Part shown: positions 4,408 to 10,878 of the stretch, in pieces
Layout: every line of letters begins with the position of its first letter
How positions within the stretch are numbered: position 1 is the first letter of the stretch
Origin: Chthonomonadales bacterium
GTDB lineage: Bacteria; Armatimonadota; Chthonomonadetes; Chthonomonadales; CAJBBX01
Reading direction: 5' to 3'
Length of the DNA: 34,953 nt
NCBI GenBank assembly: GCA_027459625.1
Contig: DAIDHP010000043.1
Span: forward strand, 1 to 34,953
The notes under the pieces: model-generated
What the model was told of the DNA's origin: nothing
What the model saw: the letters and a program-made list of their open reading frames with translations, nothing else
Database searches by the model: none
Translations under genes and position numbers: made by a program

Positions 4408-4613
4408 TTGAATCCGAACGGGAACACTCCAAAACGTTTCCAGGTTTACGGTTTGTAAGAGATTGGGGAACCGATGATTACGATGTTCAACGAGGAAGAG
4501 AGCAACAGTTGTACGATATGTATAATCCCCCGCTAAACAGGATAAGACCGATAAGCCTGAAAAACAAGTCGTTAATGAAATACATCAACGCGGCGCAAAG
4601 GTTCGGAGAATGA
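4408..4613 (+). pseudogene. Truncated toxin tip (module 4)
   Basis: Bases 4408-4425 match the RHS codons for LDPNGN in 16 of 18 positions, but the reading frame that continues is a different one, so the RHS part has shrunk to a scar. The continuing frame (from ATG 4401) encodes the end of a toxin: YDVQRGREQQLYDMYNPP, NRIRPISLKNKS and YINAAQRFGE. The RGREQ...N...I.PIS..N....YI.AA pattern is familiar from RHS and other polymorphic toxin C-termini. Without its N-terminal part it is unlikely to be active. Its stop overlaps the immunity ATG (ATGA at 4610-4613). Confidence 0.55.
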
Positions 4614-5095
4614 AAAGAAAAATACCGTGCAGGGAGGGCGACTGGTTCACCGTTCCGTTAGAAAACGAGGGGAACGCCCTAGGACTGGTGTCGAGATACA
4701 TGCACAATGGAAAAATAGCCCTCGGATATTTCTTCGAGTATCCGGGCAACGAGAACGATATCGAATCTCACATACGCAAATTGACGCCGGATGATTCCAT
4801 TTTGATAACCTTGTTTAACTGGCCTCCCGACAAAGATCCAATTTACAGGATCATCTATCACGATAACGACTGGGACAGAGACAAATGGCCGGTGCCTTTT
4901 TTCGGACACGTCGACGTGCTGAATCCGTGGAGGGCCATGAAAACGTATTATGATTTTGATGATCCGGATAATTTTGACAAATCTATGATCGTATCTCCCG
5001 AGGAGGTTGCATCCTTATATCCGGAAATATTATATGGATATTTATCATTGCCTTCTAAATTAGATAAAATCATCGGAACTAGGAAAGTGAATTAA
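4610..5095 (+). CDS. Imm26-family immunity protein (module 4)
   Basis: A 161-residue protein whose ATG overlaps the toxin stop in ATGA. The N-terminus REGDWFTVPLENEGNALGLV matches the start of Imm26 immunity proteins (GD-x-F-x-(I/V)-PL followed by a glycine-rich beta strand), and the length fits that family. It has no signal peptide. It is the best preserved part of module 4; the toxin it should neutralise is cut down to its last ~60 residues. Retaining an immunity gene without a full toxin would protect against kin carrying the intact toxin. Confidence 0.65.
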   Translation: MKRKIPCREGDWFTVPLENEGNALGLVSRYMHNGKIALGYFFEYPGNENDIESHIRKLTPDDSILITLFNWPPDKDPIYRIIYHDNDWDRDKWPVPFFGHVDVLNPWRAMKTYYDFDDPDNFDKSMIVSPEEVASLYPEILYGYLSLPSKLDKIIGTRKVN

Positions 5096-5187: not shown

Positions 5188-6313
5188 GAGCTACACCTAC
5201 GACGCCTTCGGCAGGGGGATGTCCAAAACCGTCGGCTCAAGTACGACCTACTACCTGTACGACGGCGACGCCCTGATAGCTGAGGTTGACTCCTCCACCA
5301 ACCAGGTCACCAGGTCGTACACTTGGGGCGCGGACGGCTTGGTGAGCGACCATGCCGGGACGCAGAGCAGGTTTTACCTCCTCGACGCGCTCGGGAACGC
5401 GCGAAGTTTGCTGGACCCGAATGGGAATCTCCTCGCCACGGCTGCGTACACCGCCTATGGGACGCCCGTCGGCGCTCCGTTGCCGTCAACCCCCTTCGGG
5501 TGGCAGGGGGAGGCTGGATGCTGCACGGACGCCGAGACCGGGCTGGTCTTCATGCAGGCGCGGTATTACGCTCCGTCCCTGGGGAGGTTTGTCAGCAGGG
5601 ACCCGATCGGCTTCGCGGGAGGGATAAATCATTACGCGTACTGCTATGACGACCCGATAAATTACATTGATCCCGGCGGTACGGAAGCCTCCCCCCTTAT
5701 GACGGGATTGGAGGCTCTGAGATACGCCTTCACGTTCACCCTTTGGAAGCCTGACGAGGAATGCGAGTCCTCTCCGGGATGGGAGGTAAGTAAATATTCC
5801 GCTGCAATAGGTGCGATTGCCACCTATACGGCGGCGGCGATGTACGTAGGGCCGGCTGTGGTAAGTTTGGCGCCGGCCGCCCCTAAAGTGTTGAATCCCA
5901 TTATGGATTCCCCACTTCCTGCCATGGCCGCCGAGGAGGCTGAGAATCCGGCGGCGGATGAGCAATCGGTAAATATTTCTGATTCTTTCTGTCAAACAGT
6001 TTACAAACTTACGCATGACTTTCAGGGAAGACTTGCCTTGGGATTATCTAGAAATTTAAGACAATTTGCAATAGAACATGGGGCGGCATTTTTTGAGCAT
6101 TTTGCGGAAGATCCTGACATGCAAACGCAGGAAGGGATATTAAACCTCATGAATCACGCAAATGAAATATATTTTAACTTTAAAGGCTTTGATTTGAATG
6201 AATACGGAACGTATCTTATGAAAGGAGATTATTCCGGATTAAGCACAAACTGGGAATATATGACAATAATGAAAAATCCATCGCTATTTAATAAAACATC
6301 TTTTATTCCATGA
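5188..6313 (+). CDS. Orphan RHS tip with toxin of unknown family (module 5)
   Basis: The frame enters the RHS core at about 5188 (ASYTYDAFGRGMSKTVG). It continues through the conserved end (ARYYAPSLGRFVSRDPIGF, DDPINYIDPGGTE). A variable Ala-rich segment follows (SAAIGAIATYTAAAMYVGP), which could cross or insert in a membrane, and then AEEAENPAADEQ. The last ~105 residues, from SDSFCQTVYKL to NKTSFIP, form an AT-rich unique domain with HDFQGRLALGLSRNLRQFAI. I recognise no toxin family; there is no HNH or BECR signature. The next gene is a pentapeptide-repeat protein. An ATG at 5219 exists but has no ribosome binding site. Confidence 0.65.
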
Positions 6314-6361
6314 TAAATATGAATTTAATTCATTTATGATGCATTAATAAGGAAATTTGGA

Positions 6362-7444
6362 ATGACGCATGTACCTAGACGTGACTATAGAAATGTAATA
6401 TTGTTTGAAACGTCACAGGATAATCTTAACGATTTGATCCTTGCGGATATAAATCTTGAAGGGGGGTTGCTAACGTTTCAAAGCGCACAGCGTTGCGATT
6501 TCACCAACGCCAATCTGAGGTGGACTCACTGGCGTCAGGCGGATCTTTCCGGATCCACCTTGAACGGAGCCGATATGACGGACTCCAATCTTGTCTTCGC
6601 GAAACTAAGGAACATTCATGCAAGCAATGCGATTTTGAACGATGTTTTCGGTGCGGCGGCGGATTTCAGTGATTCAATCATGATTTCGGTAAAAATGAAT
6701 CATTGTGAATTGGCTCACTGTAATTTTACGGGATGCGACTTGTCAAAATCGGAAATTAAGCACACAAATATTCATTCTGCAAAGTTCAGATCAACGAATT
6801 TACAAGAAATAAATTTTAGTTATTCGTGGTTCAATACTGTATATCCGCGAGAGAGACAAATTGTTGAATTTGCAATTTTTCAAAAAACGGATATTTCAAA
6901 ATCAATTTTTTACAGAGCGGATTTAAGAGGATTGGATTTAACAGATACGATTCATGAACAGACAGATTTTGAAAATGCTTTTTATGACATCAGTACGAAA
7001 TGGCCAAATGAAGTGAAACCGGAAAATGAAGGTGCAATATTATTATATCCGAGAATGAATTTATTAGGTATGAATCTTAACGATATCCATTTATGTGGTG
7101 TGACATTATCCAGAGTTAATGCTTCGAATATTAGTCTTCATGGAGCTTATTTGTGGTGTTCAGATTTTAGTTATGGGAATCTGAAACAAGCCGATTTAAG
7201 TTCTTGTTTTTTACTTGATTCCACGTTTGAAAATGCCATATTAAACGAGGCTTCCTTTTTAAATGCGAAGATTGCAAGATGTAATTTTAGGAATGCGGAT
7301 TTAAGAGGAGCCGACATGAGATTTGATACAAAGCATTTTCACTCCTGTACAGACGAAAAACGTGAGTTTACTCTCGAAAATGCCAAATATGATAAAACCA
7401 CCATTTGGCCGGATGAATTCGATCCCAGGGAATGGGATAGGTAG
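6362..7444 (+). CDS. Pentapeptide-repeat protein, probable immunity (module 5)
   Basis: A 360-residue protein starting at ATG 6362 with AAGGAA at 6349-6354. It is built of A(D/N)LXX-type repeats: FTNANLRW, ADLSGSTLNGADMTDSNLVF, FYRADLRGLDL, LKQADLSSC, FRNADLRGADM. Such repeats fold as a right-handed square beta-helix. The two blocks of repeats are separated by a region with TKWPNEVKPENEG; a similar TIWPDEFDP ends the second block, so the protein may be two halves of one ancestral unit. Its place 48 bases after the module 5 tip suggests an immunity role. In known pentapeptide proteins of the Qnr/MfpA type the helix mimics DNA, but there is nothing here that shows a gyrase target. Confidence 0.75.
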   Translation: MTHVPRRDYRNVILFETSQDNLNDLILADINLEGGLLTFQSAQRCDFTNANLRWTHWRQADLSGSTLNGADMTDSNLVFAKLRNIHASNAILNDVFGAAADFSDSIMISVKMNHCELAHCNFTGCDLSKSEIKHTNIHSAKFRSTNLQEINFSYSWFNTVYPRERQIVEFAIFQKTDISKSIFYRADLRGLDLTDTIHEQTDFENAFYDISTKWPNEVKPENEGAILLYPRMNLLGMNLNDIHLCGVTLSRVNASNISLHGAYLWCSDFSYGNLKQADLSSCFLLDSTFENAILNEASFLNAKIARCNFRNADLRGADMRFDTKHFHSCTDEKREFTLENAKYDKTTIWPDEFDPREWDR

Positions 7445-7502: not shown

Positions 7503-8576
7503 GACGCCTTGATAACGGAGGTGGACGCCTCCACCAACCAGGTCACCAGGTCGTACACTTGGAGCGCGGACGGTTTGGTGAGCGACCATGCGGGGACGCA
7601 GAGCCGGTTTTATCTCTTCGACGCGCTCGGGAACGCGCGGAGCCTGCTGGATCCGAACGGGAGCCTTCTCGCCACGGCCGCGTACACCGCCTACGGGACG
7701 CCCGTCGGTGCTCCGCTCCCGTCAACCCCCTTCGGGTGGCAGGGCCAGGCGGGCTGCTATTCGGACGTCGAGACCGGGCTGGTGTACATGGAGGCGCGGT
7801 ATTATGCTCCGTCTCTGGGGAGGTTCGTCAGCAGGGACCCGATAGGCTTCGCAGGCGGGATTAACCTGTACGCATATTGCGGCGGGGACCCGATTAATTA
7901 CTGGGACCCTGAAGGCACGGACGGAATTTTCGGCGTTCCCGCCGGGACCGTTGTGGGAGCCGGAGGATACTTTCTTTTCACGGCTCTATCCGGGGGGAAC
8001 CCCGTAATAGGGGCTTTGGGAGGAGCCGCCGCAGGAGCCGCCTGGAGTTATTTCGTTGACCACAAGGATATTCAAACATCCCTGGCGGATGGTTTCACCG
8101 GAGCCCTTGTCTCCAACGGCCTGGATGATGTCCTTATCGCGGGAAGAGCGTATTTCAATTACTCGTCAACTCCTCCAGCCGAAGCTGCGTCAGAACCTGC
8201 GGCGGATGCGGAGGACGCCAACTCAGAGACGTTATGCCGGCTTAGGGCGAAGCTTGACGATCCGCAAGTACGGAGGGAGTTGGTTGATCCTCCAACCGAT
8301 CGCGGCGGATTGCGGCGGAATATGGGCGATCCGCCATTTGAAGGGGCGCAGGCGCACCACAAGCTGCCGTGGTTATTCAAAGATAAATTCGCGCAAGCCG
8401 GGCTGGATGTGAATGACCCTCAATACGGATCGTGGGTTGAACCGCACGCGCATGCAAGATTCAGCTATGGATACAATCGGCAATGGAGATTGTTTTTCAA
8501 AAATAATCCATCTCCAAGTCATTTAGATATAATCAATGAATTGCAAAGATTGGATAATACGGGGCTTTATAAATGA
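7503..8576 (+). CDS. Orphan RHS tip with AHH-type HNH nuclease toxin (module 6)
   Basis: The frame starts in the RHS core at DALITEVDASTNQV, passes ARYYAPSLGRFVSRDPIGF and GGDPINYWDPEGTDG, and contains the 357-bp shared pre-toxin repeat. The toxin domain begins near LVDPPTDRGGLRRNMGDPP. It has AHHKLPWLFKDKF (His codons 8355-8360), then AGLDVNDPQYGSW and a C-terminal YGYNRQW. An A-H-H motif followed by a Pro-rich turn is typical of HNH/Endo VII (AHH-type) nucleases in polymorphic toxins. The paired immunity gene belongs to a family known from Myxococcus Sit systems with similar nuclease-like partners. There is no convincing start codon, so it is likely a silent donor. Confidence 0.75.
   Translation, partial: DALITEVDASTNQVTRSYTWSADGLVSDHAGTQSRFYLFDALGNARSLLDPNGSLLATAAYTAYGTPVGAPLPSTPFGWQGQAGCYSDVETGLVYMEARYYAPSLGRFVSRDPIGFAGGINLYAYCGGDPINYWDPEGTDGIFGVPAGTVVGAGGYFLFTALSGGNPVIGALGGAAAGAAWSYFVDHKDIQTSLADGFTGALVSNGLDDVLIAGRAYFNYSSTPPAEAASEPAADAEDANSETLCRLRAKLDDPQVRRELVDPPTDRGGLRRNMGDPPFEGAQAHHKLPWLFKDKFAQAGLDVNDPQYGSWVEPHAHARFSYGYNRQWRLFFKNNPSPSHLDIINELQRLDNTGLYK
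7923..8279 (+). repeat. 357-bp RHS pre-toxin repeat, copy B
   Basis: A near-identical copy of 3461-3817. Differences are scattered single bases, for example TTTCTATCC to GCTCTATCC and AATCCTCCC to ACTCCTCCA. It ends where the toxin domain of module 6 begins. Confidence 0.9.
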
Positions 8577-8595
8577 TTTCAGAAAGGAATACAGA

Positions 8596-9294
8596 ATGAT
8601 ATTCTATATATTCGATGATAACACCTTCGCCACAAGGGGATACACATGGGCTATGTCCCTGAAGCCCAGACCGGAGGAGTTTTCCAGAAGATGCCCAAAA
8701 TGCAAGGCGGGAATGAGCGTGGAATATCCAAAGCATTCCATTAACCTGGCTGTTGAAGGGGGAAGCAAATATCCGGATATTTTAGGCTGCGGAGCAGAAA
8801 CAATCCTCATAGTATCCCAAAACGTTATTAACGATTGGGAAGGCGCGGGGATCACAGGATATGAAAAATATGATGTGAATATCGTGGAGGCGAAGGGTAA
8901 GCGCATAAAGGATGCAGAGCCTCCCAGGTATTATCACATCAATGTTATCGGAAGAGCTGAATATGATATGGAGGCTATGGGATTCAAATGCCAAATCATT
9001 TGTGAATATTGCGGTCGTATTGAAGTTACCAACCCGAATGACAAATTGCATCCGTTAGACCCTACAATAATCAAGGAAGGATCCTGGGATGGGTCGGACA
9101 TATTCGCGATGGATATAACTCCAAGAAAGACTTATTGTATGGAGAAGGTTCTCTTCCTTGCCGGGATAAACGAGAGAACGAATTTTTATTTCGCTCCTCT
9201 TGAACTAACAGGAGATGTGAATTTCAGGGGGTTGGATTACAGATCAATGGCGAAAAAGATGGCTCGAAATAACGAGATTCCTCTTCAGAGGTAA
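8596..9294 (+). CDS. SitI6-like double-CXXC immunity protein (module 6)
   Basis: A 232-residue protein starting at ATG 8596, with GAAAGGA 8-14 bases upstream and 19 bases after the toxin stop. The first cysteine pair is RCPKC (C33, C36) and a second is ICEYCG near residue 138. Between them are GGSKYPDILGCG, an ISV-like stretch and GYEKYDV. The C-terminal part has GSWDGSDIFAMD and INERTNFYF. This order matches the double-CXXCG immunity family first described in Myxococcus (SitI6), where paired cysteines probably bind zinc. It should block the nuclease of module 6. The RHS homology of module 7 starts 4 bases after its stop codon. Confidence 0.8.
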   Translation: MIFYIFDDNTFATRGYTWAMSLKPRPEEFSRRCPKCKAGMSVEYPKHSINLAVEGGSKYPDILGCGAETILIVSQNVINDWEGAGITGYEKYDVNIVEAKGKRIKDAEPPRYYHINVIGRAEYDMEAMGFKCQIICEYCGRIEVTNPNDKLHPLDPTIIKEGSWDGSDIFAMDITPRKTYCMEKVLFLAGINERTNFYFAPLELTGDVNFRGLDYRSMAKKMARNNEIPLQR

Positions 9295-9297
9295 CAG

Positions 9298-10161
9298 CCA
9301 TTCCCCTCCACGCCCTGCGGATGGCAAGGCCAGGCGGGATGCTATTCTGACTCCGAGACCGGGCTGGTCTTCATGGAGGCGCGGTATTACGCTCCGTCCC
9401 TGGGGAGGTTCGTCAGCAGGGATCCCATAGGCTTCGCGAGCGGGATAAACCTCTACGCGTACTGCTACGGGAATCCCATTAATTACTGGGACCCTGAAGG
9501 CACGGACGGAATTTTCGGCGTTCCCGCCGGGACCGTTGTGGGAGCCGGGGGATACTTTCTTTTCACGGTTCTATCCGGGGGAAACCCTGTAATAGGGGCT
9601 TTGGGAGGAGCCGCCGCTGGCACCGCCTGGAGTTATTTCGTTGACCACAAGGATATTCAAACATCCCTGGCGGATGGTTTCACCGGAGCCCTTGTCGCCA
9701 ACGGGCTGGATGATGTCCTTATCGCGGGAAGAGCGTATTTCAATTACTCGTCAACTCCTCCCGCCGAGGCGGCGTCCGAACCTGCGGCGGCTGCGGAGGA
9801 CGCCAACTCGGAGACGTTATGCCGGCTTAGGGCGAAGCTTGACGATCCTCAAATACGGAGGGAGTCGGTTGATCCTCCAACCGATCGCGGTGGATTGCGA
9901 AAAAATATGGGTGATCCGCCTGGCGAAGGATACCATGCTCATCATATGTTGCCATGGAAATTTAAAGAATACTTCGCGAAAGCCGGGTTGGATGTGAATG
10001 ACCCTCAATATGGCTCATGGATCAAAGAAGAGAGGCATTTGGGATTTAGCTATGATTATAATCAAAAATGGGGTGAATTTATCGCAGAACATCCTCTTTC
10101 CGATAAAACGAACATATTAAACTATCTTGATGAATTAAATAATACAGGTAGGTATAAATAA
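9298..10161 (+). CDS. Orphan RHS tip with AHH-type HNH nuclease toxin (module 7)
   Basis: The RHS frame starts directly after the stop of the previous immunity gene (PFPSTPCGWQGQAGC), with no spacer. It passes EARYYAPSLGRFVSRDPIGF and GNPINYWDPEGTDG and the third copy of the 357-bp repeat. The toxin has AHHMLPWKFKEYF (His codons 9940-9945) and AGLDVNDPQYGSW, then FSYDYNQKWGEF. It is a clear paralogue of the module 6 toxin, most similar up to QYGSW and more divergent after it. The divergent end is where specificity for the immunity partner probably lies. It lacks its own start. Confidence 0.75.
   Translation, partial: PFPSTPCGWQGQAGCYSDSETGLVFMEARYYAPSLGRFVSRDPIGFASGINLYAYCYGNPINYWDPEGTDGIFGVPAGTVVGAGGYFLFTVLSGGNPVIGALGGAAAGTAWSYFVDHKDIQTSLADGFTGALVANGLDDVLIAGRAYFNYSSTPPAEAASEPAAAAEDANSETLCRLRAKLDDPQIRRESVDPPTDRGGLRKNMGDPPGEGYHAHHMLPWKFKEYFAKAGLDVNDPQYGSWIKEERHLGFSYDYNQKWGEFIAEHPLSDKTNILNYLDELNNTGRYK
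9508..9864 (+). repeat. 357-bp RHS pre-toxin repeat, copy C
   Basis: Third near-identical copy of the segment at 3461-3817 and 7923-8279. With copy B it is placed to recombine modules 6 and 7, which would swap or delete the intervening immunity gene. Confidence 0.9.
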
Positions 10162-10179
10162 TCACAGAAAGGAAATGAC

Positions 10180-10878
10180 ATGTTCTTTTATAAATTCAGT
10201 CATAATTCGTTTTACACTAGAGGATACACATGGGCTTATTCTTGGAAAAATAGTTCGGAATATACAAAAATTTGTCCTATGTGTAATTCGCCATTAATAG
10301 TTTATCCTGATAACACAATCCATCTTACGGTGGAAGGAGGAATAAAATATCCTGACATTCTTGGATGCGGGGAATATCCATTCCTTATCGTATCCGAAAA
10401 TATGATTAATGATTGGGAGAGATTTGGGATAACAGGATATAAAAAGTATAAGGCTGATATTGTTGAAGTCAAAGGAAAACGTATCAAAGACATTGAACCT
10501 CCGAAATATTATCATATCGATGTGATAGGAAGAGCCGAATACGATCTAAATGCTATGAAGTGCCAGATAAGTATCATATGCAATAATTGTAAACGAATTC
10601 AATATTTGGATTCTTCCGGGAAAATTATAAATGTTCTTCCAGATTCAATTATATTTAAAAATAATTCGTGGGATGGTTCCGATCTATTTGTTGACAGCTT
10701 AACTCCAAGATATATATTTTGCACCAATAAAATATTAAATCTGGCAGGAATTAATGAAAGAACAAACTGCAGGTTCGTTCCCTTGGATGACAAAGATCCA
10801 GTGAGTAACAAAGGACTGGATTACAAGGCGATAGCGAAAAAGATGCTGCGTGACAAGCGAAACCCCTTGGAAAGATAA
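10180..10878 (+). CDS. SitI6-like double-CXXC immunity protein (module 7)
   Basis: A 232-residue paralogue of the module 6 immunity protein, with the same length and motif order: ICPMC, GGIKYPDILGCG, GKRIKDIEPPKYYHI, ICNNCK, NSWDGSDLF, INERTNCRF and GLDYKAIAKKM. The start is ATG 10180, with AGAAAGGA upstream and 18 bases from the toxin stop. It is noticeably more AT-rich than its paralogue, so the two have not been copied from each other recently. The second cysteine pair ends in CNNCK and not in CG. Its expected job is to block the module 7 nuclease. Confidence 0.8.
   Translation: MFFYKFSHNSFYTRGYTWAYSWKNSSEYTKICPMCNSPLIVYPDNTIHLTVEGGIKYPDILGCGEYPFLIVSENMINDWERFGITGYKKYKADIVEVKGKRIKDIEPPKYYHIDVIGRAEYDLNAMKCQISIICNNCKRIQYLDSSGKIINVLPDSIIFKNNSWDGSDLFVDSLTPRYIFCTNKILNLAGINERTNCRFVPLDDKDPVSNKGLDYKAIAKKMLRDKRNPLER

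Follow-up and report, generated by a model that had tools for sequence, protein, structure and literature searches.

An uncatalogued Rhs toxin tip with a putative pentapeptide-repeat immunity protein

We describe an Rhs toxin tip that very probably forms a toxin-immunity pair with a pentapeptide-repeat protein (PRP) encoded just downstream. On sequence grounds, the tip is one of a widespread, uncatalogued family of polymorphic toxins that has members in several phyla. The copy in the window (the entire 34,953-nucleotide stretch analysed here, contig C43 in a draft genome of 4.55 Mb) is best explained as a displaced, or orphan, Rhs cassette in which an exchangeable C-terminal tip is followed by its cognate immunity gene. 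To this explanation as a whole, including the fold, the enzymatic activity, and the direct binding by the PRP that are proposed below, we give a confidence of about 0.45. The Rhs arrangement itself is familiar. None of the libraries that we used names the toxin family, the immunity family that usually goes with it, or the PRP as its partner.

Structure of the cassette

Over its initial 11 kb, the window carries Rhs C-terminal fragments in an array; every fragment ends in a different tip, and most have a partner gene after them. The genome contains 39 Rhs cores in all, and its prepilin-type genes suggest, from sequence, that it belongs to Armatimonadota. The cassette studied here begins with an open reading frame (ORF) of 364 amino acids (5219..6313, + strand), a displaced Rhs C-terminal fragment composed of Rhs core, linker, and toxin tip. 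Profile search of this ORF identified the Rhs repeat-associated core TIGR03696 (E 1.5e-22), which marks the conserved boundary ahead of an exchangeable tip and lies upstream of the tip at 5447..5680 (+; E 9.2e-23 for this segment). An Rhs core thus directly precedes a variable tip, as is expected of an Rhs polymorphic toxin. The tip itself (5963..6313, +) makes up the last ~95-116 residues of the ORF, with its core starting from LALG at 6032.

The ORF ends 48 bases before the start of the PRP gene (6362..7444, +), which encodes a putative immunity protein of 360 amino acids; by eye, and from the sequence only, AGGAAA at 6350..6355 (+) is a possible ribosome-binding site for it. Both ORFs described in the earlier note are real, and its naming of the partner as a PRP was borne out by two Pfam families (PF00805, E=1.3e-33; PF13599, E=1.5e-25). 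The Rhs core has a GC content of 62%, against 34% for the tip and 38% for the PRP gene, a drop that is as expected of an exchanged tip-plus-immunity cassette.

Copies of the cassette in the genome

Two further copies of the tip, on contigs C39 and C9, are 47-62% identical over the aligned tip. All three tips in the genome have a 360-residue PRP directly 3', and all three PRPs lie directly 3' of a tip; the two further PRPs are 69% and 64% identical to the window PRP, and no other PRP of this family was found anywhere else in the genome. A gene that is directly 3' and specific to its tip, as expected of the immunity gene of an Rhs polymorphic toxin, is therefore seen for three of three tips. By our own arithmetic, random placement beside the 39 cores would put three PRPs on these three tips with a chance of ~1 in 9,139. 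The pairing, known from the three copies in this one genome, goes beyond chance because both extra tip copies directly precede PRPs and no other PRP of this family occurs in the genome. One weak PRP match, on contig C75, was set aside as a generic 212-residue PRP with a 630-residue gene between it and an Rhs fragment, and the best PRP elsewhere in the phylum had no Rhs neighbor on the 6 kb examined.

Comparison of the window and C39 copies gave dN/dS values of ~0.23 (tip) and ~0.27 (PRP), and therefore both appear to be kept as functional proteins under purifying selection. The window copy has no N-terminal Rhs shell, as might be expected if tip and PRP were an inert cassette, the decayed leftovers of Rhs recombination. 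Such decay is extremely improbable given three intact copies, dN/dS values of ~0.2-0.3, and one copy on a long Rhs frame: the C39 tip ends a frame of at least 1089 residues that runs off the contig, so that the tip is found in both orphan and long Rhs contexts. The toxin-immunity reading rests on the three-of-three pairing together with purifying selection on both proteins. It is this part of the earlier note, an unknown toxin with PRP immunity, that stands, with the tip matching no described family; its further proposal of a DNA or gyrase target is not supported, as all 16 relatives with a readable locus lack a PRP. As a separate observation, the window and C39 PRPs share 93-97% identity at residues 30-60 and ~43-60% in the middle of the protein, as if paralogues had exchanged segments.

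The tip family

Searches of Pfam, NCBIfam, PADLOC, and PDB sequences gave no match to the window tip, in agreement with the earlier note, which saw no HNH, BECR, or other known mark in it. Across the family, matches to Pfam and NCBIfam models stay at chance level for every member; an HNH or BECR nuclease is further disfavored by the predicted fold, which has a different order of elements. Profile-profile comparison linked the own-genome tips to those of Bacteroidota: against Chryseobacterium and Chitinophagales tips, hhalign gave a probability of 98.9% (E 2.8e-17, 98 columns).

These relatives came from several searches of differing breadth. A three-row profile of the own-genome tips found no relative in 291 genomes of the window's phylum, which was covered by this narrow profile only, so that distant relatives with PRP partners there may have escaped it. 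Patterns taken straight from the sequences of the three own-genome tips proved too specific: they gave nothing in the genome or viral contig collections, and only chance matches in plasmids. A hand-chosen C-terminal motif, TNWE[LYFM]xxIxxNP, scanned over 84,980 genomes, hit 24 places, of which four are true relatives (two Chryseobacterium, one Chitinophagales, and one Planctomycetota genome); TNWE and TDWE matches in viral contigs were rejected as chance. HMM searches then recovered members in 7 of 395 and 7 of 296 Bacteroidota genomes and in 3 of 294 Planctomycetota genomes, and tblastn added one relative, on Streptomyces plasmids. In most cases the relative forms the C-terminal tip of a polymorphic-toxin protein, of the Rhs or another type.

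Conservation among 15 members centers on a few positions. Gly27 is invariant (15/15; codon 6041..6043, +) at the end of strand 1, and a candidate active-site motif, Asn96-Trp97-Glu98 (codons 6248..6256, +), stands at a helix start, with N/D96 in all 15 members, W97 in 13, and E98 in 14. N72 and K/R111 are each conserved in 13 of 15.

Immunity partners across the family

Outside the window's genome, the tip is found with other partners. Among 16 relatives with a readable locus, none has a PRP partner, and in 11 (Bacteroidota and Planctomycetota) the next gene encodes a ~130-residue immunity-family protein unrelated to the PRP. These proteins share the motif 'F+IW.Y.VSHS.LLIRS...NIDIEF' and span ~115-137 residues, two of them being shorter or cut. 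An HMM built from seven of the eleven recovers all 11 (E 7.7e-75 to 1.4e-8) and rejects the PRP. Another small partner is common to two Planctomycetota tips, a further two tips have different ones, and the Streptomyces tip gene has no evident partner.

In a tree of the tips, which is small and weakly supported, the three PRP-linked tips cluster together (84/94), and tips with the VSHS-type partner lie to either side of the midpoint root. The simplest reading of these sequence relationships is a partner exchange in the window's lineage, in which the PRP would have replaced the ~130-residue immunity protein. The VSHS/NIDIEF partners (L050, L052, L056, L078, L080, L086-L089, L091, and L092) are themselves uncatalogued and occur in two phyla, which makes them candidates for a new family model.

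Role of the PRP

These partners bear on what the PRP does. The earlier note had reasoned from Qnr and MfpA that the PRP may mimic DNA and protect gyrase or DNA, and that the tip would act on a DNA-bound enzyme or on DNA itself. In favor of this, gyrase is the site of action of the PRPs Qnr, MfpA, and microcin B17 immunity protein (PMC10886550), and the PRP here is acidic (pI 4.9-5.6). Against it, PRPs are absent from all 16 relatives' loci and unrelated partners stand in their place; the co-occurrence of tip and PRP thus holds for three of three tips in the window's genome and for none of the 16 relatives, which is the outcome that the earlier note had named as speaking against its idea. The PRP also scores far below the curated cut-offs for Qnr (41.4 of 240 bits) and MfpA (37 of 360), with generic PRPs scoring best. 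Since relatives of the tip pair with unrelated proteins, a DNA or gyrase target cannot be read from the PRP, and we regard a gyrase shield as very unlikely. The own-genome tips are acidic, which could also be held against it, but weakly: many tip relatives are basic (pI 8-10), and a tip of this array that has a nuclease-type WHH motif is also acidic, so we dropped tip charge as an argument against a nucleic-acid target.

PRPs are also known as accessories of type VI secretion systems (T6SS) beside vgrG and rhs genes (PMC3942780, PMC13373197), and the PRP could be a secretion accessory like TagB/TvpB rather than an immunity protein. This is about as improbable: the PRP follows this tip type only (3 of 39 Rhs cores), occupies the immunity position in an array where other tips also precede a partner gene, and accompanies displaced tips lacking an N-terminal part for export. 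No vgrG, PAAR, or DUF2169 gene was found beside it, the neighbors in the window and on C39 being other Rhs tips and their partners. It is likely, instead, that the PRP neutralizes the tip by direct binding, because its position, its specificity, and the precedents of unrelated immunity folds all fit. Such precedents include the ARC (CD38-like) and Tde5 toxins, in which immunity proteins of unrelated structure neutralize a single toxin family (PMC12356396, PMC12605009, PMC13392607); those systems differ from the tip and PRP in having other folds and no PRP.

Predicted structure and candidate activity

AlphaFold2 models of the window tip (pLDDT 83.6, pTM 0.77) and of a Chryseobacterium homologue (pLDDT 91.7, pTM 0.84) both predict a compact beta-alpha fold in the order strand-helix-short strand-helix-strand-helix(es)-strand (b-a-b-a-b-a-b). 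Foldseek returned no match at E<0.001 for either model, the best being 0.096. For the Chryseobacterium model, the TRAM TIR domain ranked first against the PDB (probability 0.72, E about 0.1), TIR-STING structures followed with probabilities of 0.69 and 0.63 (TM 0.52), and the top 50 also held TLR1, TLR2, and AbTir TIRs and nucleoside 2'-deoxyribosyltransferases (NDTs). For the window tip, TIRs appeared at ranks 2 and 36. Small alpha/beta proteins easily collect TIR-like structural matches. When 16 TIR domains taken from related genomes were compared by hhalign, the alignment fell in the expected register and scored 17.6, versus a maximum of 15.1 in 100 column shuffles, at a probability of 2%; none of 15 members matched a TIR or NDT Pfam model at E<=10.

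By prediction, the tip may share with TIR NADases and NDTs its strand-helix order and the position of a conserved Glu after strand 3, and these proteins lead its Foldseek matches; it is smaller and has neither a significant structural match nor a Pfam match. In the window tip model, E98 lies in helix 94-104, after strand 68-72. The Trp-to-Glu spacing is i+4 in TIR NADases, unlike the i+1 of the tip. Weighing these models, we put a TIR/NDT-like fold at roughly even odds. The near-invariant Glu98 of the N-W-E motif would then sit in the helix after strand 3, the place of the catalytic Glu in TIR/NDT enzymes, and the tip might hydrolyze the N-glycosidic bond of NAD(P)+ or of a nucleotide, perhaps via Glu98, until the PRP binds it directly and blocks it. 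We offer an NAD or nucleotide glycohydrolase activity as a tentative suggestion only. An ADP-ribosyl cyclase (CD38) fold was considered and rejected, as such domains are bigger than the tip and depend on two Trp plus two Glu residues, and no such structure was among the matches.

Somewhat less plausible than our best explanation as a whole, and short of even odds, is that the tip is a toxin of another kind, such as an RNase or an enzyme that modifies nucleotides, built on a small alpha/beta fold that would be novel, the PRP again being a direct-binding immunity protein. The lack of any significant structural or sequence match of the tip to an enzyme would suit this, as would a conserved polar set (N72, N/D96, E98, and K/R111) compatible with other chemistries and the basic character of many relatives. 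Weighing on the other side, TIR and NDT structures lead the weak matches of the better model, and TIRs are already among those of the window tip.

Relation to known systems

The tip and PRP are like the Rhs tip-immunity cassettes of Zhang et al. 2012 (PMC3482391) in having an Rhs core, a variable tip, an immunity gene directly 3', and arrays of displaced cassettes, as far as the compared parts of that paper go. The tip family is absent from the Pfam models and from the tip tables in those parts; the repeat-type immunity proteins named there are LRR, ankyrin, and HEAT repeats, with 0 occurrences of 'pentapeptide'. With McbG, AlbG, Qnr, and MfpA the PRP shares the pentapeptide-repeat fold, and McbG is likewise an immunity protein. 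These proteins counter small molecules or peptides at gyrase, whereas the 360-residue PRP here is paired with a protein toxin and falls below all Qnr/MfpA cut-offs.

In the literature, which we covered incompletely, we found no PRP described as polymorphic-toxin immunity. The most specific interpretation would be a minimal TIR/NDT-like NAD(P)+ or nucleotide glycohydrolase that serves as an Rhs tip and that the PRP inhibits by binding it directly. It would be the first case of a PRP giving immunity to a protein toxin from a polymorphic system, in a family that elsewhere uses an unrelated, undescribed immunity family; taken together, we consider this doubtful. A toxin family and a matching immunity family extend over several phyla without a name in the family libraries used, and immunity folds unrelated to one another, among them a pentapeptide solenoid, appear to counter one and the same toxin family. 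Should the PRP bind the toxin, pentapeptide proteins would act as protein-toxin inhibitors, a role beyond topoisomerases. The case also warns that an antidote's fold is an unsafe guide to the toxin's target.

Neighboring cassettes

The 39 Rhs cores in one 4.5-Mb genome, many of them within displaced-tip arrays, represent an unusually large reservoir. At 1-1565 of the window, a tip with a WHH motif ('KEEWHHIWPRY') is followed by a 368-residue partner without a Pfam match, and an Imm26 protein (PF15428, E 2.5e-6) is encoded at 4610-5095, just before the cassette studied here. AHH-type, HNH-like Rhs tips ('AHHKLPW') occur in three copies (window 7509-9294 and 9373-10878; L121:3847-6348), each followed by a partner of ~231-252 residues with CxxC motifs; in the copy examined (window 7509-9294), neither tip nor partner belongs to a Pfam family. 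On contig C39 (L009:13654-15436), an Rhs tip whose caspase/CHAT-like signal is weak (DUF4347, E 0.013) precedes an ankyrin-repeat protein, a second repeat-type partner in the same array.
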